From Burkholderiales bacterium (GTDB taxonomy: Bacteria > Pseudomonadota > Gammaproteobacteria > Burkholderiales > Thiobacteraceae), in NCBI GenBank assembly GCA_023511995.1, contig JAIMAL010000011.1, positions 1 to 64,000 on the forward strand: a DNA stretch of 64,000 bases, given 5' to 3'. Below are positions 2,381-23,594 of the stretch, piece by piece. A program made the position numbers and the translations under genes. Numbering within the stretch: position 1 is the first letter of the stretch; each line of letters starts with the position of its first letter. Under the pieces are notes generated by a model. It did not search any database and was not told where the DNA came from. It was given only the letters and a program-made list of their open reading frames with translations.

Positions 2381-4933
<2,553 letters not shown>

Positions 4934-6327: not shown

Positions 6328-6597
6328 ATGGCTGTCACCACCGCTGAAAAAGCAAAGATTGTGCGCGAGTACCAACTGGCGCAAGGCGATACCGGCTCGC
6401 CCGAGGTGCAGGTCGCGCTGATGACTGCGCGCATCAATGACCTCACCGAACACTTCAAGACCCATGTCAAGGATCACCATTCCCGCCGCGGTCTGCTCAA
6501 GCTGGTGAGCAAGCGGCGCAAGCTGCTTGACTATCTCAAGCGCACCAATGCGGACCGCTATCGGGCATTGATCGACCGCCTCGGTCTGCGCAAGTAA
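6328..6597 (+). CDS. rpsO: 30S ribosomal protein S15
   Basis: An 89-residue primary 16S rRNA-binding protein. Near-full match to the family, including [35 protein letters not shown] and the basic end. ATG 6328 follows a GGAGCGAA ribosome-binding site. It sits between truB and pnp, the classic order, and is followed by an intrinsic terminator, so S15 can be made in excess over PNPase. Confidence 0.97.
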
Positions 6598-6611
6598 GGC
6601 GGGTGTGGGAA

Positions 6612-6634
6612 AGGCGCGGTCTCCGCGCCTTTTT
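6612..6634 (+). terminator. Terminator between rpsO and pnp
   Basis: Eight-bp stem AGGCGCGG/CCGCGCCT (6612-6619 with 6623-6630), 3-base loop and T-run. It lies 15 bases after the rpsO stop; partial read-through would feed pnp. Confidence 0.85.
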
Positions 6635-6695
6635 CAATTGGAGGTTTGGTTTTTTCCTGGCCGTGGCTGCGGCCTTTCAGTTGAGGATTCCCAAG

Positions 6696-8834
6696 GTGGC
6701 ATATTTCAAGAAGACCTTTGCCTACGGCAAACACCAGGTGACTCTGGAAACGGGGGAGATCGCGCGGCAGGCGAGCGGCGCGGTGATGGTTAACATGGAC
6801 GACACCTGTGTGCTGGTCACGGTGGTGGCGGCGAAGGGGGTGAAACCGGGCCAGGATTTCTTCCCCCTGACCGTGGATTACCAGGAACGTACCTACGCTG
6901 CAGGGCGCATTCCCGGCAGCTTCTTTCGGCGTGAAGGCAAGCCCTCCGAGAAGGAAATTCTCACCTCCCGCCTCATCGACCGCCCCCTGCGGCCCCTCTT
7001 TCCCGATGGTTTCTACAACGAAGTGCAGATCGTGGCGACGGTGATGTCCGCCAACCCCGACGTGGATCCGGACATCCCGGCGCTCATCGGGGCGTCGGCG
7101 GCGCTATCCCTTTCCGGTGTGCCTTTCCACGGCCCCATTGGCGCCGCCCGCGTGGGTTACCAGGACGGCCAGTATCTGCTCAATCCCACCATCAGCGAGC
7201 TGAAGACTTCTGAGCTCGATCTGGTGGTGGCGGGCACGGAGCAGGCGGTGTTGATGGTGGAATCGGAGGCCATGGAGCTGCCCGAGGACGTGATGCTGGG
7301 GGCGGTGATGTTCGGCCACGAACAGTTGCAAACCGTCATCCGGGCCATCAACGAGCTTACCGAAGAGGCCGGTGCCGAGCCGTGGGACTGGACGCCGCCT
7401 GCGCGTGACGAAGCCCTGGTGGAACGCATCCGCCAGCTTGCCGAAGCGGAGCTTCAGGAAGCCTACCGCATCACCCAGAAACAGCAGCGAGTGGCGCGGG
7501 TGGATGCGATCCGGGAAAAAGTCTTTGCCGAGCTCATCACGCCCGACATGGATACCATGGCGCAGAACGCCATCAAGTCCCATTTCTTCGAGTTGGAAGC
7601 CAAGGTGGTGCGCAGCCGCATCCTCGCCGGTGAGCCCCGGATCGATGGTCGCGACACGCGCACGGTGCGCCCCATCAGTATCCGCACCGGCATCCTACCC
7701 CGTGCCCACGGCTCCGCCCTCTTCACACGGGGGGAAACGCAGGCGCTGGTGGTGGCGACCCTGGGTACCGCCCGCGATGCACAAATCATCGATGCCCTCG
7801 AAGGCAGCTATTCCGAGCGTTTCATGATGCATTACAACATGCCCCCCTATGCCACCGGTGAGACCGGGCGGGTGGGCGTGCCCAAGCGGCGGGAAATCGG
7901 CCATGGCTGGCTGGCGAAGCGGGCTCTGCTGGCCGTGCTGCCCAGCGAGGAGGAATTCGCCTATTCCATCCGCCTCGTTTCCGAAATCACGGAATCCAAT
8001 GGCTCCAGCTCCATGGCTTCGGTCTGCGGCGGCTGTCTTGCCCTGATGGATGCGGGCGTGCCGGTGAAGGCCCATACGGCGGGGATCGCCATGGGCCTGA
8101 TCAAGGAAGGGAACCGCTTTGCCGTGCTCACCGACATCCTGGGGGATGAGGACCACCTGGGTGACATGGATTTCAAGGTGGCCGGCACCGAACGCGGTGT
8201 CACTGCCCTGCAGATGGACATCAAGATCACCGGCATCACCAAGGAGATCATGCAGGTCGCCCTCAATCAGGCGCGGGAAGGGCGCATGCACATCCTCAAG
8301 CTCATGAAGGAGGCCATGCCCCAAGTGCGGGAGGAGCTTTCCACTTACGCCCCCCGCATGATCACCATGAAGATCAACCCGGAGAAGATCCGGGACGTGA
8401 TCGGCAAGGGTGGAGCCGTCATCCGTGCCCTCACCGAGGAGACCGGAACCCAGATCGATATCGCCGAGGATGGCACGGTCACCATCGCCTGCGTCAATCC
8501 GGAAGCCGGCGCCGCCGCCAAGCGGCGCATCGAGGAACTCACCGCCGAAGTGGAAGTGGGCAAGGTGTACGAGGGGACGGTGCTCAAGCTGCTGGATTTC
8601 GGCGCCATCGTCAGTGTGCTGCCCGGCCGGGACGGCCTGTTGCACATCTCCCAGATTGCCCATGAACGGGTGAACAACGTCTCCGACTACCTCAAGGAAG
8701 GCCAGACCGTGCGCGTCAAGGTCCTGGAGGCGGACGAGAAGGGTCGCCTGCGTCTTTCCATGAAGGCCCTCTTGGAGCCGCCGGCAGGACAGAAGGCTGA
8801 GAGCGCGGAAAAGAAACCCGAGCCGGCGGCCTGA
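6696..8834 (+). CDS. pnp: Polyribonucleotide nucleotidyltransferase (PNPase)
   Basis: A 712-residue phosphorolytic 3'-5' exoribonuclease and degradosome component. Two RNase PH-like cores are joined by an all-helical segment, then a KH domain ([20 protein letters not shown]) and an S1 domain ([20 protein letters not shown]) at the C-terminus. The start is taken as GTG 6696, giving [20 protein letters not shown], with TGAGGA 9 bases upstream. Upstream in-frame codons would run into the rpsO terminator. Expression may come through that terminator or from an unseen promoter. Confidence 0.96.
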
Positions 8835-15982: not shown

Positions 15983-17350
15983 ATGGCCAAGGCAAAAACG
16001 GTCTACGTCTGCAGCGACTGCGGCGGGCAGAGCCTGAAATGGCAGGGACAGTGTCCCCATTGCGGTGCCTGGAACACCCTCCTGGAGACGGTGGCGGAAA
16101 CACCGGCAACGGGCAGCCATCGCTACCAGGGGCTGGCGGCGGATGGACGCCTGAAACGGCTCGCGGAAGTGGATGCCGAAGAGATGCCGCGCTGGTCAAC
16201 GGGGGTGGGCGAGCTCGACCGGGTTCTGGGGGGCGGGCTGGTGCCGGGCGCCGTGGTGTTGCTGGGCGGGGATCCGGGCATCGGCAAATCCACCCTCCTG
16301 CTGCAGGCGCTGGCCCACATGAGCCGGAAGCAGGAGGTGCTCTACGTGAGCGGCGAGGAGTCCGCCGAGCAGGTGGCCCTGCGGGCGCGCCGCCTGGCGC
16401 TCGATGCAAGCCGTGTAGCCCTCTTGGCGGAAATCGGGCTGGAACGGATTCTTGCGGCCCTGCGCAACTCGGCGCCCCGCGTGGTGGTGATCGACTCCAT
16501 CCAGACCCTTTATTCCGATGCCCTGCAGTCTGCGCCGGGCAGTGTGGCACAGGTGAGGGAATGCGCCGCCCAACTGACCCGGTATGCGAAACAGTCCGGC
16601 ACCGCGGTGCTTCTGGTCGGGCATGTCACCAAGGAAGGCGCGCTGGCGGGCCCGCGCGTGCTGGAACACATCGTGGATACGGTCCTCTATTTCGAGGGTG
16701 ACACCCATTCCAGCTTTCGCCTCGTGCGCGCCTTCAAGAACCGTTTCGGCGCCGTCAATGAGCTGGGGGTGTTCGCCATGACGGAGAAGGGTTTGCGCGA
16801 AGTAGCCAACCCCTCCGCCCTGTTCCTTTCCCACCATGGCCGGCAGGTGGCGGGCTCCTGCATCCTGGTGACCCAGGAAGGCAGCCGCCCCCTCCTGGTG
16901 GAGGTGCAGGCCTTGGTGGACGAGGCCCACACGGCGAATCCCCGGCGACTGGGGGTGGGGCTGGAGCAGAACCGGCTGGCCATGCTGCTGGCGGTCCTGC
17001 ACCGCCATGCGGGGATTGCCTGTTTCGATCAAGATGTCTTCGTCAATGCCGTGGGGGGGGTGCGCATCAGCGAACCGGCGGCGGACCTCGCCGTGCTGCT
17101 GGCCATCGTCTCCTCCTTGCGGGACCAGCCCCTGCCGCCCAAACTGGTGGTCTTCGGCGAGGTGGGCCTGGCCGGCGAGGTGCGTCCCGTGCAGCGGGGG
17201 CTGGACCGCCTGAAGGAGGCCGCCAAACTGGGTTTTGAGCGCGCCATCGTGCCGCGGTCCAACGTTCCCCGGCAGGCCCCGCCCGGGCTGGAGATCTTTG
17301 GCGTCGAGCGGGTGGAGGAGGCGGTTGCCATGCTCCGGGCGGCCCCGTAG
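15983..17350 (+). CDS. radA: DNA repair protein RadA
   Basis: A 455-residue RecA-like branch-migration helicase for recombinational repair. The N-terminal zinc finger is CSDCGGQSLKWQGQCPHCG (about residues 10-28), then Walker A GGDPGIGKST, the RadA-specific KNRFG motif (FKNRFGAVNELGVFAM) and a C-terminal Lon-protease-like domain without protease function. ATG 15983 is two bases after alr. Its last codons carry a candidate promoter for the next gene. Confidence 0.95.
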   Translation: MAKAKTVYVCSDCGGQSLKWQGQCPHCGAWNTLLETVAETPATGSHRYQGLAADGRLKRLAEVDAEEMPRWSTGVGELDRVLGGGLVPGAVVLLGGDPGIGKSTLLLQALAHMSRKQEVLYVSGEESAEQVALRARRLALDASRVALLAEIGLERILAALRNSAPRVVVIDSIQTLYSDALQSAPGSVAQVRECAAQLTRYAKQSGTAVLLVGHVTKEGALAGPRVLEHIVDTVLYFEGDTHSSFRLVRAFKNRFGAVNELGVFAMTEKGLREVANPSALFLSHHGRQVAGSCILVTQEGSRPLLVEVQALVDEAHTANPRRLGVGLEQNRLAMLLAVLHRHAGIACFDQDVFVNAVGGVRISEPAADLAVLLAIVSSLRDQPLPPKLVVFGEVGLAGEVRPVQRGLDRLKEAAKLGFERAIVPRSNVPRQAPPGLEIFGVERVEEAVAMLRAAP

Positions 17351-17353
17351 AAT
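17325..17353 (+). promoter_or_regulatory. Candidate promoter of the first phosphatase-FHA pair
   Basis: TTGCCA (17325-17330), 17-base spacer, TAGAAT (17348-17353); each box is one base off consensus. It overlaps the radA stop codon. Transcription would start near 17360, 77 bases before the phosphatase gene. Confidence 0.55.
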
Positions 17354-17436
17354 GACATCGTAATAGCGCCGGCGCCGGGCGGTTGGCCCTGGCGGTCCCA
17401 TAAAGACGCCCCGGCACTTTGACGAGGGTGCGTAGC

Positions 17437-18240
17437 ATGCAGATGGAAACGGGCATGGAGTGGTCGGCTTCCCCTGACCGGGCGTTGCACGTGACCTTCG
17501 CGGCGCTTACCGATGCCGGCCGGCTGCGCACCAACAATGAAGATGCCCTGGCGTGGGACCTGGACGCGGGCCTATTCCTGGTGGCCGATGGCATGGGCGG
17601 CTGCAACGCGGGCGAGGTGGCCAGCCGGCTGGCGGTGCGCATGGTCCTCGCCGAGTTCCGTCAGCTTCCCCTTTCCCTGCCGGCGCAGGAAGGCTGCAGC
17701 GCGGTGCTGAGTGCGCCGGCCATGCGCCTGTGCACGGCGATTGTCAAGGCCAACCGGGCGGTCTTCGAAGCCAGTCTCCAGGAGCCGGCCTACGCCGGCA
17801 TGGGCACCACCCTGGTGGCGCTGCTTTTGCAGGGCCAGCGGGCCATCATCGCCAGCATCGGGGATTCCCGGGTGTACCGTTTCCGCGCCGGCCAGCTCGC
17901 CCAGCTCACGGTGGATCATACCGTCCTCCAGGAACAGATCGATTTCGGGCTCATCACCCTGGAACAGGCACGCCTGATGGGGGGCCGCGGGCTCATCACG
18001 CGCGCCCTCGGGGTGGAACCGGGGTTGGAAGTGGATGTGCAGGAACAGGCTGTCGCCGCCGGCGATCTCTATCTCCTTTGCACAGACGGCTTGTTCGATA
18101 TGATCCCCGATGAAGAAATCGCCGCCATTCTGAGTGATACCCAGGGGGAGGTGGAGGCGGCGGCCAAGGCGCTGGTGGCGGCGGCGAATACCGCCGGGGG
18201 CTACGACAACATCTCCGTCATTATCGTGGGAATCCGCTAG
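17437..18240 (+). CDS. PP2C-type protein serine/threonine phosphatase (first copy)
   Basis: A 267-residue metal-dependent phosphatase of the Stp1/PppA type, predicted to remove phosphate from Ser/Thr in targets of the nearby kinase. Metal-binding motifs are present: TNNED (33-36), VADGMGG (Asp51), GMGTT, GDSRVYRFR, CTDGL and GGYDNISVI. No signal peptide or membrane segment is visible, so it is cytoplasmic. ATG 17437 is preceded by GAGGG; a TTG at 17419 is less likely. An FHA gene follows 8 bases later. A paralogue with the same motif order lies at 21337-22146. Confidence 0.88.
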   Translation: MQMETGMEWSASPDRALHVTFAALTDAGRLRTNNEDALAWDLDAGLFLVADGMGGCNAGEVASRLAVRMVLAEFRQLPLSLPAQEGCSAVLSAPAMRLCTAIVKANRAVFEASLQEPAYAGMGTTLVALLLQGQRAIIASIGDSRVYRFRAGQLAQLTVDHTVLQEQIDFGLITLEQARLMGGRGLITRALGVEPGLEVDVQEQAVAAGDLYLLCTDGLFDMIPDEEIAAILSDTQGEVEAAAKALVAAANTAGGYDNISVIIVGIR

Positions 18241-18248
18241 AGGGCACC

Positions 18249-19004
18249 ATGTCCCGCCTGCTCATTTTCGATGCCAACGGCAACCCGCTGGGTGAGCGCC
18301 TCCTCGACCGGGAGCGTATCCGCATCGGCCGCCGCTTGGACAACGACCTCGTCCTCGATGACCTTTCCGTCAGCAATGAACACGCCCTGATCATCACCAT
18401 CCGCAACGATTCCTTCATCCAGGATCTGAACAGCATGAACGGCGTGCGGGTGAACGGCCGGCTCATCCGCCATCACCATTTGCAGGCTGACGACGAGGTG
18501 ACCATCGGCAGCTTCACCCTACGCTACCTGCATGAGCCATGGACGGAGCCGGCATCGGTGTGGCTGCCGCCGGAAACCCGCGCCCAGAAGGAAGCTGCAG
18601 TGCGCGCGGCGACCGCCGGGGAAGGGCAGACCCTGTTCCACCTGGAGGTGGAAGGGGGAGAGGCAAGTGAAGTGCTGCCGGATACGGAAATCCTGGGCAG
18701 CCCGACGGCTTTGCTAGCGCCGACGCCACCCACCACGGTCCAGGGCACGGGCCATCTGCGACTTCTGGCCGGGCCCGGTGCCGGGCGCGAGACCGCGCTC
18801 ACCCGCGCGGTGACCACGCTGGGTAAGCCGGGCATTCAGACGGCGGTGATTTCCCGGCGGGGCCCCGCCTATTATCTGAGCTTCGTCGAGGGCGACACCT
18901 ATCCCCAGGTGAACGGGATGGAAATCGGCGCCACCCCCCATCTCCTCAACGATCACGACATCCTGGACGTGGCGGGTACCCGCCTGGAATTTTTCTACCG
19001 CTGA
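18249..19004 (+). CDS. FHA-domain protein (first copy)
   Basis: A 251-residue phosphothreonine-recognition protein. The N-terminal FHA domain (about residues 5-95) has IGRRLDNDLVL (Gly-Arg), SVSNEHA (Ser/His) and the Asn-Gly of NSMNGVRVNG. A linker follows (about 95-165). Residues about 170-251 look like a second, degenerate FHA: LRLLAGPGAGRE, ISRRG, VNGMEIG. It probably brings phosphorylated partners to the phosphatase translated just before it. It ends 7 bases from the convergent lipoprotein gene. Its architecture matches that of 22157-22852. Confidence 0.85.
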   Translation: MSRLLIFDANGNPLGERLLDRERIRIGRRLDNDLVLDDLSVSNEHALIITIRNDSFIQDLNSMNGVRVNGRLIRHHHLQADDEVTIGSFTLRYLHEPWTEPASVWLPPETRAQKEAAVRAATAGEGQTLFHLEVEGGEASEVLPDTEILGSPTALLAPTPPTTVQGTGHLRLLAGPGAGRETALTRAVTTLGKPGIQTAVISRRGPAYYLSFVEGDTYPQVNGMEIGATPHLLNDHDILDVAGTRLEFFYR

Positions 19005-19011
19005 AGATGCC

Positions 19012-19425
19012 TCAGCGGGAACGGCTGCGGGCCGCCATCTCCGACTTCACCGACCGGTAGATGGGCCCCCAGATGGGATGACCTTCCTCCGTGGGGTCCA
19101 GGCGGAAGTCCGGGTCCAGCTCGAAAATCCGGCGAAACTCGTCCCGGCAGGCCCGTTCCTGGCCCGAGGCGCAATAGATGAAGGCAAGGTATTTGCGCGC
19201 GGCAATCTTGTCCGACTGGAAGGCAAGCCCCGCGTCCAGGGCCTCGTTGAGGCTTTTCTGGGCGGCCTTGTAGTTGCCGTCCTCGTATTGGCTGATGCCC
19301 TGGGAGAGGAGCTTTTCCGCCTTACGTACGGCAAGCTTGTCCACGCCCAGGTCGCGCGCCGTCTGGCTGGCGCAGCCGGCGACCAGCAGGGCGGCAAGGA
19401 GGCAAAGCCAGCGAGCCAGGATCAT
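19012..19425 (-). CDS. TPR-type lipoprotein, TssQ-like
   Basis: A 137-residue predicted lipoprotein. The signal peptide ends in LLVAGC (Cys18). The mature part has one to two TPR-like helices (KLLSQGISQYEDGNYKAAQ) and a conserved end: LAFIYCASGQERACRDEF, then FELDPDFRL and GHPIWGPIYRSV. It resembles the small TssQ-type lipoproteins sometimes found with type VI secretion kinases; that link is from memory and needs a search. It follows the kinase gene by 8 bases on the same strand, so it may be a periplasmic partner of the membrane-anchored kinase. No type VI secretion structural genes are in the window. Confidence 0.72.
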   Translation of the reverse strand: MILARWLCLLAALLVAGCASQTARDLGVDKLAVRKAEKLLSQGISQYEDGNYKAAQKSLNEALDAGLAFQSDKIAARKYLAFIYCASGQERACRDEFRRIFELDPDFRLDPTEEGHPIWGPIYRSVKSEMAARSRSR

Positions 19426-19433
19426 GGGGGTGC

Positions 19434-21032
19434 CTATTTGCTGAATTTGTATTTGATCTTGTGGGTGCCGTCCGCTTCCACCCGGATCGTCTCCGTGTAG
19501 GGGGCGAAGGTCTGGTTGACGATCAGGATGCGATGTTCCCCGGCCGCGACCTTCAGCTCCCGCAGCGGCGGGCTGACCCCTTGGCGCACGCCGTCCACGA
19601 ACACCTCGCCCCAGGGACTGATGGCCAGAAGGAGGGTGGCCGTCCCCGCCGCGGGGCCCGCCTCGTGCTCCACCACCCGGCTTTCCGCGGTGGAGGTGAG
19701 GGCCACCGCCTTGGGCCGGGGCTCGCTTTTCTCGCGGCGGGCGGCGGTGGCCTCACCGGCGGGCTTGGTGGCCATTTTGCCGGCGGGCGGGGTGGGTTTG
19801 GCTTCCGTTTTCTCTTCGGCTTGTTTCTTTTCCTCTTGCGCTCCCGGCCGGGCGGCGGGCGCCTCGGGGCTAGCCGCGGGCGCCTCGGGGGTAGCCGAGG
19901 TGGGCGCGGCTTGTTCCGCCTTCGGGGATGAGGCTTCTGCCACGACGACGGGCGGTGCGGCGACCTGCGGCGGCGGGGCCGGCGCCTTGCGGCTGACAAT
20001 CAGCCCGATGAAGACGGCAAGCAGGAGGGGGATGCCCGCCAGCAGCGCCCAATGGGGCCAGCGCCGTCTGGCGGCAGCCGGTGCGGGGGGTGGGTTTTCC
20101 TCTTCCTCACTCAAGCGGGCGATGACCTGGGTTTTGTCACCCAGACTGTCGCGGGGCGTGCGGCGCCGCTCCAGGGGTGCCGCCGGGGCTGGGTTTTCCC
20201 CCGGCGCCGGCACCACCAGGGTCTTGTACTTGCGCAAATCCCGCGCCAGTTCCTTCGCCGTCTGGTAACGGGCATCCGGTTGCTTGGCCAGGGCCTTGAG
20301 GACGATGTAGTTGATGGAATCGGGGATGTTCTGGTTGAAGGCCTTGGGCGGGATGGGTTCCTCGTTGAGGATCTGGTACATGATGGCGCTGATGTTGTCG
20401 CCGACGAAGGGGGTCTTGCCGGTGAGCATTTCGTACAACACCACGCCGAGGGAAAAGATATCGGAACGTCCATCCACCGTCTGGCCCACCACCTGCTCGG
20501 GGGACATGTACTTGGGCGAACCCATGACCATGCCGGCCATGGTGCGGGAGGCGGAAGAGACCTGGGCGATGCCGAAGTCGGTGATCTTCACCATGCCGTT
20601 CTTCAGCACCATGATGTTGGCCGGCTTGATGTCCCGATGCACGATGCCATGCTCGTGGGCAAAGGCGAGGCCATCGCATACCTGGGCGGCAATGTGCACC
20701 ACCTTCTCGATGGGCAGGACCACACCGGAATCGAGAATCTCCCGCAGCTCCTTGCCCTGCAGGAATTCCATGGCCATGTAGGCCACGCCCTCCGCGCGGC
20801 CCACATCGTAGATGGTGACGATATTGGGATGATTGAGTTTGCCCGCGGACTGGACCTCCCGCTGGAACCGCTTTTCGAAGGTTTCCAGCTCATCCCGGGA
20901 CAGGTCCAGGTTGATGGTCTTGATCGCCACGGTGCGATCGATCAGAGGGTCCACGGCCTTGTAGACCACACCCATGGCCCCCTGGCCCAGCTCCTCGACG
21001 ATGACGTAACGACCCAGCTTCTCGATGACCAT
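19434..21032 (-). CDS. Transmembrane serine/threonine protein kinase with PEGA-like domain
   Basis: A 532-residue Hanks-type kinase. Residues 8-265 carry GQGAMG (16-21), the catalytic Lys (VAIKT, Lys38), HRDIKPAN (132-139), DFG (152-154) and SPE (177-179). A cytoplasmic linker (about 270-320) is followed by one transmembrane helix (about 327-347), a long Ala/Pro/Glu/Lys-rich stalk (350-460) and a PEGA-like domain (463-532: GEVFVDGVRQGVSPPL). The kinase therefore faces the cytoplasm and the PEGA end the periplasm. ATG 21032 gives the usual N-terminus; a TTG at 21104 is an alternative. It is flanked by two PP2C-FHA pairs on the opposite strand. Confidence 0.9.
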   Translation of the reverse strand: MVIEKLGRYVIVEELGQGAMGVVYKAVDPLIDRTVAIKTINLDLSRDELETFEKRFQREVQSAGKLNHPNIVTIYDVGRAEGVAYMAMEFLQGKELREILDSGVVLPIEKVVHIAAQVCDGLAFAHEHGIVHRDIKPANIMVLKNGMVKITDFGIAQVSSASRTMAGMVMGSPKYMSPEQVVGQTVDGRSDIFSLGVVLYEMLTGKTPFVGDNISAIMYQILNEEPIPPKAFNQNIPDSINYIVLKALAKQPDARYQTAKELARDLRKYKTLVVPAPGENPAPAAPLERRRTPRDSLGDKTQVIARLSEEEENPPPAPAAARRRWPHWALLAGIPLLLAVFIGLIVSRKAPAPPPQVAAPPVVVAEASSPKAEQAAPTSATPEAPAASPEAPAARPGAQEEKKQAEEKTEAKPTPPAGKMATKPAGEATAARREKSEPRPKAVALTSTAESRVVEHEAGPAAGTATLLLAISPWGEVFVDGVRQGVSPPLRELKVAAGEHRILIVNQTFAPYTETIRVEADGTHKIKYKFSK

Positions 21033-21075
21033 GGCGGAAATGTCTTCAGCCCGTGCGGCTTCCGTGAGGCACTCA

Positions 21076-21104
21076 ACGGTAGTTTTTAGGCCGGTCCCTG
21101 TCAA
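21076..21104 (-). promoter_or_regulatory. Candidate promoter of the kinase gene
   Basis: On the minus strand: consensus TTGACA (21104-21099), 17-base spacer, TACCGT (21081-21076). The -10 is weak (3 of 6). Transcription would begin about 35-40 bases before the ATG at 21032. Confidence 0.4.
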
Positions 21105-21336
21105 GGGAAAAGGGCGGGGGCCTCAAGTTTTGCGCCCGCGCGCCGTTAATCCCGGGCATTCGCCATGTGCTTGTCATGACAGGGAAAATGCCCCGGCCGC
21201 GGCCTTGCCGGGGCGCCATGCCATTAGCGTCAAAGTGAACAAAAAGTTAAGCCTGGCCCAACCGGCGGCGAAGTAATATGCTGTCGCAACAAATCGGAGG
21301 CAAGGGGGCGCGGCCCCCTGCCCAAGCAGGTGTTCC
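21105..21336. other. Divergent intergenic region, kinase / second phosphatase
   Basis: The full gap between the two start codons is 304 bases. It holds a GC-rich stem GCCCCGGC/GCCGGGGC (21190-21214) with no T-run, and a TAATAT box at 21274-21279 that may be the -10 of the second phosphatase gene (no clear -35). GGGGGCGCGGCCCCC at about 21303-21317 can also pair. Control of both directions from here is plausible. Confidence 0.4.
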
Positions 21337-22146
21337 ATGAAACTCAGTCATGCCTTGACCTTTGCCAGCCTGAGCGACGCCGGGCTGGTGCGCAATTTCA
21401 ACGAAGACAGTGTGGCCGTGGATGAGGACATGGGGCTTGTCATCGTCGCCGACGGCATGGGAGGCTACAAGGCGGGCGACGTGGCGGCCGGCATGGCCAC
21501 CCTCATCGTCACCAATGAGTTGAAGGGCAAGCTGGGGGACAAGGGGGCACGGGAGCCTGTCTCCACCGACGTGATCCGTGCCGCGGTCAACCGCGCCAAC
21601 CAGGCCATCTACCATGCGGCCCACAACCGGCCCCAGTTCCAGGGCATGGGCACGACCCTGGTCATGGCGCTGTTCCACGACGACATGGTGACCATCGCCC
21701 ATGCGGGGGATTCCCGCGCCTACCGCCTGCGGGAGGGGCGCCTGACGCAGTTGACGGTGGACCATTCCCTGCTGCAGGAACAGCTCGAGATGGGGCTCAT
21801 CAGCACCGAGGATGCGCGCGTATCCCACAACCGCAACCTGGTGACGCGCGCCCTCGGGGTGAACCAGAACATTGTCGTCGATGTGAAACAGGAACGGGCA
21901 CTGCCGGGGGATCTCTATCTCTTGTGCACGGACGGGCTCAACGACATGGTGGACGATGCGGACATCGAGCTTGCCATGGAAAGCCTCCAGGAAAACCTTC
22001 CGCTGCTTGTCAAACAACTGGTGATCATGGCCAACGACAACGGCGGCCATGACAACATCTCCGTGGCCGCGATCCGTGTGGATCGGCCCTTCCCCGCGCG
22101 GCGCGGGTTGTGGGCCCGGATTTTTCCCCGCTTGTGGAACCGGTGA
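21337..22146 (+). CDS. PP2C-type protein serine/threonine phosphatase (second copy)
   Basis: A 269-residue paralogue of 17437-18240 with all metal motifs: FNED (22-24), VADGMGG (Asp39), GMGTT, AGDSRAYRLREG, CTDGL and GGHDNISVA. It lacks the Met-rich N-terminal extension of the first copy and has a basic tail (FPARRGLWARIFPRLWNR) that could touch the membrane. The FHA gene follows 10 bases later. Retention of a complete active site in both copies argues for two working phosphatases. Confidence 0.9.
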   Translation: MKLSHALTFASLSDAGLVRNFNEDSVAVDEDMGLVIVADGMGGYKAGDVAAGMATLIVTNELKGKLGDKGAREPVSTDVIRAAVNRANQAIYHAAHNRPQFQGMGTTLVMALFHDDMVTIAHAGDSRAYRLREGRLTQLTVDHSLLQEQLEMGLISTEDARVSHNRNLVTRALGVNQNIVVDVKQERALPGDLYLLCTDGLNDMVDDADIELAMESLQENLPLLVKQLVIMANDNGGHDNISVAAIRVDRPFPARRGLWARIFPRLWNR

Positions 22147-22156
22147 GGCGATCGAT

Positions 22157-22852
22157 ATGGCGAAGCTGGTATTGAGCCTGAATGGCACGGTGCTGGGCAA
22201 CTACTTCCTGGAGAAGGATCGGTTCGTCATCGGGCGCCGCGCAAGCTGCGACATCCAGATCACCGATCAGGGGGTGAGCAAGGAACACGCCGTCATCCTG
22301 ACGGTGGGCAATGACCAGATTCTGGAAGACCTCAAGAGCACCAACGGCACCCTGGTCAACGGGCGCCGGGTAAGCCGCCATATCCTGCAGAACGGCGACG
22401 TGATCGAAGTGGGCCGCTACAAGATCAAGTACATCAACCAGAAGGCCCTGCCGGACATGGATTTCGACAAAACCCTCCTGATTCCCGCCTTCGACCGCAG
22501 CCGGCTGAAAGAGGTGGGGATCGATCTCGAGGCACAAACCGGTCTGCAGGTGGAGACCGCGGTGGCCACCGCGCGGGCGGTGAAGAGCGTCTTCCCCCTG
22601 GGGGCGGTGCGGCTGCTGTCGGGGGCGGAGGCGGGCAGGGAAATCGAGCTTTTGCGGCCCATCACGCCCTTCGGACGACCCGGCAACCGGGCCATCATTT
22701 CCCGCCGGCCCCACGGCTATTTCGTCACCCATGTGAGCGGCCGCCGGCTGCCGGTGGTCAACGGCCGCACTATCGGCAGCGAGCCCCATCCCCTGGACAA
22801 TCTCGATCAACTGGAGATTGACGGGGAAAAACTGCAGTTCTTCCTCAAGTAA
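22157..22852 (+). CDS. FHA-domain protein (second copy)
   Basis: A 231-residue paralogue of the FHA protein at 18249-19004. The first FHA domain has FVIGRRASCDIQI, SKEHAVIL and STNGTLVNG, all intact. The second, from about residue 150 (VRLLSGAEAGREIELLRPIT, ISRRP, VNGRTIG), lacks a clean phosphothreonine pocket. ATG 22157 was chosen over an in-frame codon upstream inside the phosphatase gene. Its last 8 bases overlap the 3' end of the convergent SDR gene. Confidence 0.86.
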   Translation: MAKLVLSLNGTVLGNYFLEKDRFVIGRRASCDIQITDQGVSKEHAVILTVGNDQILEDLKSTNGTLVNGRRVSRHILQNGDVIEVGRYKIKYINQKALPDMDFDKTLLIPAFDRSRLKEVGIDLEAQTGLQVETAVATARAVKSVFPLGAVRLLSGAEAGREIELLRPITPFGRPGNRAIISRRPHGYFVTHVSGRRLPVVNGRTIGSEPHPLDNLDQLEIDGEKLQFFLK

Positions 22853-23594
22853 GCGGCTGGGCGTCGAGGACGGTGCCACTCACGCCCCGGCTGTCCGGAC
22901 CCATGAGGTAGAGGTAGGCGGGCATGATCTCCTCGGGGCGGGGCAGAAGCGTGGGCAGCTCCCCCGGGTGGGTCCGGCGCCGCTGGGGGGATTGCACGGG
23001 GCCGGGCACCAGCGCGTTGATGCGCACCTGGGGCGTGATTTCCAGTTCCTGGGCCCAGGTCCTCACCAGCGCCTCCAGCGCCCATTTCGACACACCAAAT
23101 GCGCCCCAGTAGGCGCTGGGTTTGCGCCCGTGGGTTTCCGAAGTCATGACCACCGAAGCGTCTCTCGCTGCCTTGAGCAGGGGCAGGCAGGCGCGGGTCA
23201 GGGCAAAGGGGGCCACCAGATTGACGCGCAGGATGCCGAGCCACTGCGCCATGGTTTCCAGCTCCAGAGGCACCAGGGCGTCCAGACGGGAGGCATTGTG
23301 CAGAATGCCATCCAGGCGGCCGAGCTGTCCCTCGATGGCATCGGCCATACGCTGGAAATCCTCGTCCGTGGCCTTCTCCAGGTCGAGACTGAAAATCACC
23401 GGCTCCGGATGGCCGGCGTCGGCGATGAGGTCATAGGTTTCCTCCAGGCGCCTTTCGTCCCGGCCGAGGAGAATCACCGTGGCGCCGTAGGCGGCGAAGG
23501 TGCGGGCGGCGGTCTGGCCGATGCCCTGGCCGGCGCCGGTGACGAGGATGACCCGCTCCTTGAGCAGATCGGGCGGGGGATGATAGGCGATCAT
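22845..23594 (-). CDS. YciK-like short-chain dehydrogenase with altered active site
   Basis: A 249-residue SDR resembling E. coli YciK. The cofactor motif VTGAGQGIG (18-26), LGRDERRL, HNAS (99-102) and RVNLVAPF are intact. In a gap-free alignment to the SDR pattern, the catalytic Ser position is Glu153 (VVMTSETHG) and the catalytic Tyr is Phe166 (YWGAFGVSK); only Lys170 remains. The DNA reads GAA and TTT at these codons. It may bind NAD(P) without normal oxidoreductase chemistry. It starts 23 bases after hpnE, so it may share the hpn transcript. Confidence 0.82.
   Translation of the reverse strand: MIAYHPPPDLLKERVILVTGAGQGIGQTAARTFAAYGATVILLGRDERRLEETYDLIADAGHPEPVIFSLDLEKATDEDFQRMADAIEGQLGRLDGILHNASRLDALVPLELETMAQWLGILRVNLVAPFALTRACLPLLKAARDASVVMTSETHGRKPSAYWGAFGVSKWALEALVRTWAQELEITPQVRINALVPGPVQSPQRRRTHPGELPTLLPRPEEIMPAYLYLMGPDSRGVSGTVLDAQPLT

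Follow-up and report, generated by a model that had tools for sequence, protein, structure and literature searches.

The stretch of DNA analysed here (hereafter the window), 64,000 nucleotides of contig JAIMAL010000011.1, belongs to a Burkholderiales genome of 2.51 Mb (44 contigs, 99.98% complete) and carries, as read from its open reading frames (ORFs), six genes at 17437-22852: a PP2C phosphatase-FHA protein pair on the plus strand, a lipoprotein and a Ser/Thr kinase on the minus strand, and another PP2C-FHA pair on the plus strand. This locus is a real, conserved gene set outside the type VI secretion system (T6SS) and a new variant of the PpkA-PppA-Fha theme. The main new point is that, depending on the type of locus, a PEGA tail is carried by the kinase or by a cyclase-like protein, and that a lipoprotein of the TssQ family adjoins both. 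According to our best reading, the PpkA-TssQ combination of T6SS is a related use.

Pairing of the PEGA tail with the lipoprotein

We compared 80 TssQ loci (L035-L114), 79 from 75 genomes of the order and one from genome G367, which lies outside the order survey; their ORFs were scanned with purpose-built profiles. Type counts were restricted to these loci because L115-L194 repeat some contigs. Type I loci (23/80) combine a kinase bearing a PEGA tail with tandem-FHA genes: 13 possess two PP2C and two FHA genes, as the window does, eight possess a single PP2C gene (the FHA ORFs numbering two or three in some of them), and two an FHA gene only. In type II loci (37/80) the PEGA tail belongs to a cyclase-like protein encoded with the lipoprotein, and a PEGA-less kinase stands beside them in 35 of the 37. 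The other 20 loci include L053 and L086, which comprise a PEGA-tailed kinase, TssQ, an Fha protein with T6SS_FHA_C, and PP2C.

In 72 of the 80 loci, a PEGA-tailed ORF lies on the same strand as the lipoprotein gene and at most 500 bases from it, mostly 0-20 bases. Furthermore, an ORF of 262 amino acids (L086:7279-8064) fuses a TssQ-like stretch (52.7 bits, cut-off 65, E 4.7e-14) to a PEGA domain (35.6 bits, cut-off 20.8). The Pfam PEGA profile passes its cut-off in L064, L047, L046 and the window, and equals it in L042. The original prediction had treated the PEGA end of the kinase and the lipoprotein as the sensor side of the circuit; that they form one side is supported by their adjacency, the single fusion and the analogy with TssW-PpkA discussed below.

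Cyclase activity in type II loci is plausible from sequence. Three type II proteins scored 18.7, 21.3 and 18.6 bits against Pfam Guanylate_cyc, all under the cut-off of 21.9, and the catalytic motifs were found in 20 of 37 proteins by a strict count and in 31 of 37 by a relaxed one, the other six being without at least one motif. An example of a type II PEGA-tailed cyclase-like protein beside the lipoprotein is L064:6616-7800. A second kinase in these loci, considered on account of a weak phmmer kinase score of the gene before the lipoprotein, was rejected; the score arose because the PEGA tail was matched, and Pfam recognises a cyclase-like domain plus PEGA.

Several loci showed further domain combinations. 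L048 encodes PP2C and kinase domains in one ORF (2763-4535 and 6339-8372) near a TssQ gene; in the PEGA-type partner of that gene (Pfam PEGA 17.6 bits), no further domain was recognised. Two tandem TssQ domains occur in the lipoprotein ORFs L045:7881-8768, L080:7358-8380 and L091:7659-8546.

Occurrence in genomes with and without T6SS

The TssQ family (NF038027) was identified in 77 of the 250 genomes sampled from the order (76 of them above the cut-off), in 5 of 369 from the class (3 above) and in 12 of 398 from the phylum (11 above), counts that take in the window's own genome. Genome G494, whose match falls below the cut-off, is counted among the 77 and absent from the fetched loci. TssC (PF05943) was found in 59 of the 250 order genomes (58 over cut-off). 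The two lists share 17 genomes, a figure reproduced when the overlap was repeated on the 75 fetched order genomes, and 60 of the 77 TssQ-positive genomes are without TssC, an absence less sure in the few of the 77 that are under 90% complete. A lipoprotein family associated by name with T6SS is thus mostly T6SS-free in this order. By locus type, TssC-containing genomes account for 4 of 23 type I, 1 of 37 type II and 16 of 20 other loci (G367 being outside the TssC survey), and for the four type I loci concerned, TssC is on a different contig from TssQ. The original prediction had proposed a stand-alone module, to be given up if the genes served a T6SS and had no stand-alone relatives; the proposal gains support from those 60 genomes and from the 19 of 23 type I loci in TssC-negative genomes, and thus passes this refutation test of its own.

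In the window's own genome, TssB (PF05591), TssC and TssK (PF05936) gave no match, with the E. coli control genome positive each time; further T6SS families were not searched. The earlier observation that no secretion genes are visible thus holds genome-wide for these three families, and the T6SS association implied by the family name does not apply here. A Pfam scan did not find T6SS_FHA_C (PF20232) in either FHA protein of the window (FHA-A and FHA-B), and the TIGR03354 scores were 39.9 and 50.0 bits, well under the cut-off of 120.25, whereas the Fha proteins of the T6SS-type loci L053, L078, L086 and L114 contain PF20232 and pass the TIGR03354 cut-off. T6SS membership was rejected for this genome on the three families searched (TssB, TssC and TssK) and on the lack of PF20232 in the FHA proteins of the window.

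The identical six-gene arrangement recurs in each of the six genomes sampled from the window's genus or family (L035-L040), and because of this retention we regard it as more than chance. A scan of contigs from named genomes returned 508 relatives, of which 80 were kept; most bear betaproteobacterial titles, and a few are labelled Deltaproteobacteria or Syntrophus. Plasmid searches yielded three records; the one inspected bore no annotation at the relevant positions. Carriers of a PEGA-tailed kinase, the lipoprotein and at least one PP2C-FHA pair include Thiobacillus denitrificans RG (L127), Sulfuricella sp. T08 (L123), Sulfuriferula multivorans TTN (L146), Cognatazoarcus halotolerans (L153) and Azoarcus sp. 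L1K30 (L183).

Layout and domains of the window locus

The features of the locus are as follows.
17325..17353, plus strand: promoter-like match TTGCCA-17-TAGAAT upstream of PP2C-A (consensus match only)
17437..18240, plus strand: PP2C-A, Ser/Thr phosphatase, 267 amino acids plus stop (ATG; alternative TTG start at 17419)
18249..19004, plus strand: FHA-A, 251 amino acids; N-terminal FHA domain (residues 24-87), linker, degenerate second FHA-like region
About 18750-19001, plus strand: degenerate second FHA-like region of FHA-A, placed by eye from the alignment
19012..19425, minus strand: TssQ-family TPR-like lipoprotein, 137 amino acids
19434..21032, minus strand: Ser/Thr kinase, 532 amino acids (ATG at 21032)
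19440..19607, minus strand: PEGA domain of the kinase (PWGEVFVDG...GVSPPL), presumed periplasmic
19995..20051, minus strand: predicted transmembrane helix of the kinase (WALLAGIP..., from residue 328; end set by eye)
20121..20138, minus strand: juxtamembrane motif DKTQVI (Thr301) of the kinase, candidate autophosphorylated FHA ligand
21337..22146, plus strand: PP2C-B, Ser/Thr phosphatase, 269 amino acids
22157..22852, plus strand: FHA-B, 231 amino acids; N-terminal FHA domain (residues 24-86)
22466..22483, plus strand: linker motif DKTLLI (Thr106) of FHA-B, candidate phospho-switch site
About 22601-22849, plus strand: second beta domain of FHA-B, following a low-confidence linker (residues 108-144)

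The order and strands of all six ORFs are as originally predicted. The locus start had been set at 17325, a position that falls in the 3' end of the ORF at 15983-17350; the first PP2C gene begins at 17437 or 17419. Two promoter-like matches were present in 17300-22960, compared with a shuffle mean of 0.9.

Both phosphatases match PP2C PF13672 (PP2C-A 61.8 bits, PP2C-B 57.9 bits, cut-off 24) and retain the five motifs NED, ADGMGG, GDSR, TDGL and (Y/H)DNIS, in line with the earlier claim that each keeps all metal motifs. The Stp1/IreP-type model NF033484 gave 234.6 bits for PP2C-B, over its cut-off of 230, and 228.6 bits, just under it, for PP2C-A, in which the five motifs are likewise present; among the loci surveyed, the PP2C motifs were found in 26 of 34 proteins by a strict and in 32 of 34 by a relaxed count. 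A full first FHA domain, also predicted earlier, was recovered in FHA-A and FHA-B (PF00498, 61.4 and 83.1 bits, cut-off 20.7). Each protein has a second, degenerate FHA-like region, which resembles the first domain with an hhalign probability of 92.7, over 33 columns only, and shares the VNG...D-IEVG end of FHA domains; no SxxH was seen at the corresponding alignment position. In a structure comparison, which hardly covered the second region, the first FHA-B domain matches FhaA (Z 16.9), OdhI (Z 17.2) and GarA (Z 17.0).

The kinase scores 204.9 bits against PF00069 and contains VAIK, HRDIKPAN and DFG, which identifies it as a Hanks-type Ser/Thr kinase. The catalytic domain is followed by a Pro-rich linker, one transmembrane helix, an Ala/Pro/Lys-rich stretch and the C-terminal PEGA tail (Pfam 25.9 bits, barely above the cut-off of 20.8); the score against the Stk1/PknB_PASTA model was 378.3 bits, under the cut-off of 450. 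The lipoprotein belongs to the TssQ family (NF038027, 112.5 bits, cut-off 65). Among 29 aligned members, Cys18 (lipobox), Cys85 and Cys93 are invariant, and a GHPxWG motif is present. Its structural model is helical and confident (mean pLDDT 91.3). No closer structural relative was found, the best PDB matches being TPR modules, none at E <= 0.001.

Kinship and chromosomal position

A quick tree of 80 kinase domains (from L035-L114, seven named loci and the CHASE2-operon survey), to be read with a warning about long branches, separates type II kinases (99), a group of T6SS-type loci (89) and CHASE2-kinases (100), while type I requires two changes. The T6SS-type group, comprising eight sequences, includes L112 (from a genome without TssC), L042 (TssC more than 50 kb away) and L114 (outside the TssC survey). 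VAIK, HRD and DFG are intact in all 58 type I and II kinases. The ORF upstream of the window locus (15983-17350, plus strand) is probably radA-like, a name taken from a related ORF of L049 with Pfam matches fitting RadA. Among the fetched stretches, a radA-like ORF is present in 19 of 23 from type I loci, in 15 of 37 from type II and in 1 of the 20 others; owing to this shared neighbour, types I and II may occupy one old chromosomal place.

Conserved threonine motifs

Threonine motifs were counted in the window and in every locus from L035 onward; where catalytic domains were identical, only one of the kinases entered the count. In type I kinases, a variable Pro-rich linker precedes the membrane segment and holds one conserved Thr (DKTQVI, Thr301, in the window). 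The pattern [DE]xTxx[ILMV] was found in 41 of 50 such linkers versus 3.1 expected by shuffling. Type II kinases carry FDSxxATxRLA, with [DE]ATxxL in 30 of 54 versus 0.76 after shuffling; the looser pattern is less telling there (34 of 54 versus 9.7). In FHA-B-like linkers, [DE][KR]T[LMIV][LMIV] occurs in 42 of 42 versus 0.09 shuffled, and Thr106 (DKTLLI) is invariant in 18 aligned members. Since the pattern had to find the linker and identical linkers were dropped, the sets shrank from 57 to 42 FHA-B-like and from 24 to 14 FHA-A-like proteins. FHA domains suit a phosphothreonine with an aliphatic residue at +3, and the conserved Thr motifs of the kinase and FHA linkers resemble FHA ligands.

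Other signalling genes of the genome and the order

Profile searches returned three Pkinase, three PP2C_2 and five FHA matches in the genome, that is, two further kinases, one PP2C and three FHA matches outside the locus. The original description of one kinase with two erasers and two readers therefore fits the locus and does not extend to the genome. On contig C6, L210:5843-8263 encodes an 807-amino-acid Ser/Thr kinase fused to HDOD and GAF domains. Contig C9 contains a kinase-PP2C pair, and L209:1742-3391 on the same contig encodes 550 amino acids with an FHA domain and a type II/IV secretion ATPase domain (T2SSE). A third tandem-FHA protein with the linker LEKTVVM is encoded on contig C1 (L206:6073-6816), near 5'-nucleotidase-like and sulphur-transport genes; no kinase or PP2C profile match was present in the fetched stretch around it. 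FHA-B relatives occur in 152 of the 250 order genomes (E <= 1e-10), many of the matches listed covering the first domain only. In L211:2931-9379, an operon encodes a CHASE2-kinase, a PP2C, a tandem-FHA protein and a CHASE2-cyclase (Pfam applied to L211 only), and, judged by size and profile, the same operon is present in L212, L220, L221, L223 and L224.

Discussion

We consider it fairly probable that the locus is a stand-alone trans-envelope phosphothreonine circuit in which a PEGA-lipoprotein receptor controls the kinase. This reading starts from direct observations, namely the gene content, the intact motifs, the absence of three core T6SS proteins, the PEGA-lipoprotein linkage and the Thr motifs. 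The TPR-like lipoprotein, probably anchored in the outer membrane, would bind or restrain the periplasmic PEGA tail of the kinase. A change in this contact would cause the kinase to cluster and autophosphorylate, including at the isolated juxtamembrane Thr (DKTQVI), and the FHA domain of FHA-A and/or FHA-B would dock on the kinase phosphothreonine. Linker phosphorylation of the docked protein (at DKTLLI in FHA-B) may follow, whereupon this protein would close on itself or oligomerise, releasing or capturing a target, perhaps via its second FHA-like region. Resetting the kinase and the readers would fall to the two PP2C phosphatases. Envelope stress, suggested in the original prediction, is a conjectural stimulus. 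The two outputs proposed originally are not supported, as the second PP2C-FHA pair is lacking in 10 of 23 type I loci and is for this reason optional.

The closest known counterpart is the T6SS pathway of PpkA-PppA-Fha and TssW, which shares with the locus a membrane kinase with a periplasmic C-terminus, a PP2C eraser, an FHA reader and a probable outer-membrane partner. The A. citrulli protein TssW resides in the outer membrane, and its gene is flanked by ppkA and fha; it binds PpkA, including the periplasmic domain in two-hybrid tests, and positions it. Without TssW, PpkA foci shift to the poles independently of PpkA catalysis, and overexpressed PpkA rescues secretion, the foci staying mostly polar (PMC12607579). 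The Pseudomonas aeruginosa T6SS threonine-phosphorylation pathway works with TagQRST (PMC12607579), and A. olearius has PpkA and PppA homologues and no TagQRST (PMC6423157). Thr phosphorylation of the FHA reader and binding of an outer-membrane partner to the periplasmic domain of the kinase belong to the T6SS pathway and are proposed here for the locus too. The words PEGA and TssQ are absent from the main text of PMC12607579, and no papers on the kinase/FHA/PEGA/CHASE2 theme outside T6SS were found in the open-licence PMC literature. TssQ-family genes occupy the place of TssW in the T6SS-type loci L053 and L086, and on this gene order we infer that TssW is probably a TssQ-family protein. Unlike the T6SS pathway, the window genome is without TssB, TssC and TssK, its FHA proteins are without T6SS_FHA_C, its two PP2C-FHA pairs lie on the strand opposite the kinase, and the kinases belong to a separate branch.

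Other systems resemble the locus in part. GarA/OdhI is a self-binding FHA switch. The locus resembles the actinobacterial PknB-GarA/OdhI and FhaA systems in the fold of the first FHA-B domain (Z about 17) and in a conserved Thr beside the FHA domain; in contrast to GarA/OdhI, this Thr follows the domain, in the linker to the second, degenerate FHA-like region, and the kinase tail is PEGA instead of the PASTA of PknB. The CHASE2-kinase operon (L211 type) has a similar pair of PP2C and tandem FHA beside the kinase, with the linker motif in five of six FHA proteins, but its sensor is CHASE2, and the PEGA and TssQ profiles were unmatched in those stretches. The type II operon shares the PEGA-type tail, the lipoprotein family and a related kinase; there, however, PEGA is on the cyclase-like protein, the kinase is PEGA-less, and the fetched stretch holds no tandem-FHA gene.

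Could the locus be a leftover of a lost T6SS, in which the PpkA-PppA-Fha and lipoprotein switch outlived the secretion genes and now either does nothing or has found a chance new use? The same kinase-lipoprotein-Fha arrangement in L053 and L086 and the T6SS-associated name of the TssQ family would fit, but we hold this to be quite improbable: the six genes are intact in all six sampled relatives of the genus or family, type I and T6SS-type kinases fall on different branches, of the 60 loci of types I and II, 55 come from genomes without TssC, the window FHA proteins are without PF20232, and the distribution of the radA-like ORF (19/23 type I versus 1/20 other loci) points to a locus long inherited vertically at one position. 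It is unlikely, if less so, that the locus is no insulated relay but part of a broader network in the cytoplasm, to which the kinases of C6 and C9 and the tandem-FHA protein of C1 also belong. The genome-wide number of Pkinase, PP2C_2 and FHA matches, the similar linker motif of the C1 protein (LEKTVVM) and the PP2C-tandem-FHA pairs beside CHASE2-kinases in the order favour such sharing, whereas the tight gene order kept across families and the closest kinship of the window kinase to kinases of its own locus type speak against it. A somewhat stronger, still doubtful candidate is a lipoprotein-PEGA pair that is structural instead of sensory, placing a constitutively active kinase as TssW places PpkA; it draws on the moved PpkA foci and the restored secretion reported for A. 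citrulli (PMC12607579). A PEGA tail on the cyclase-like protein in 37 loci fits control of an output enzyme better than placement of a kinase, which may nonetheless apply.

Several points weigh against a stand-alone receptor circuit. Membrane location, phosphorylation, docking, stimulus, signal direction and targets are all inferred, and the two other kinases, the third PP2C and the three other FHA domains could share its network. The PEGA tail was traced by a profile seeded with the window's own tail, the Pfam PEGA scores of L062 (19.1) and L048 (17.6) are below the cut-off of 20.8, and that of the window is barely over it. In eight of the 80 TssQ loci, the lipoprotein gene has no PEGA ORF beside it on its own strand: in L087 and L110 the PEGA ORF is on the opposite strand, and in six loci, all in TssC-positive genomes, no PEGA tail was found in the fetched stretch. 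Nine of 50 type I kinases miss the strict linker motif; judged by eye, all nine keep a similarly placed Thr (e.g., VKTEIL), eight of them with I/L/M/V at +3. The FHA-A linker motif (GQTLF, Thr128, in the window) is weaker, with 10 of 14 versus 1.97 shuffled. Finally, the shuffle figures overstate independence because they are post hoc counts on related, motif-yielding sequences.

Beyond the stand-alone circuit of the window, the PEGA tail and the TssQ-family TPR lipoprotein may form a general trans-envelope receptor with interchangeable outputs, mainly in betaproteobacteria, a broader proposal that we find as easy to doubt as to accept. Its outputs would be a kinase with phosphothreonine readers in type I, a class III cyclase working alongside a kinase in type II, and T6SS firing through PpkA. 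If so, the T6SS use would be one branch, and the T6SS family name would fit a minority of the carriers here. Most sampled carriers in the order of this T6SS-named lipoprotein family are without the T6SS sheath gene. Should the receptor reading hold, the locus would offer a tractable model, in Gram-negative organisms such as Thiobacillus denitrificans, of how an outer-membrane lipoprotein is coupled to a eukaryote-type kinase or a cyclase, and would suggest where the T6SS PpkA-TssW switch may have originated.

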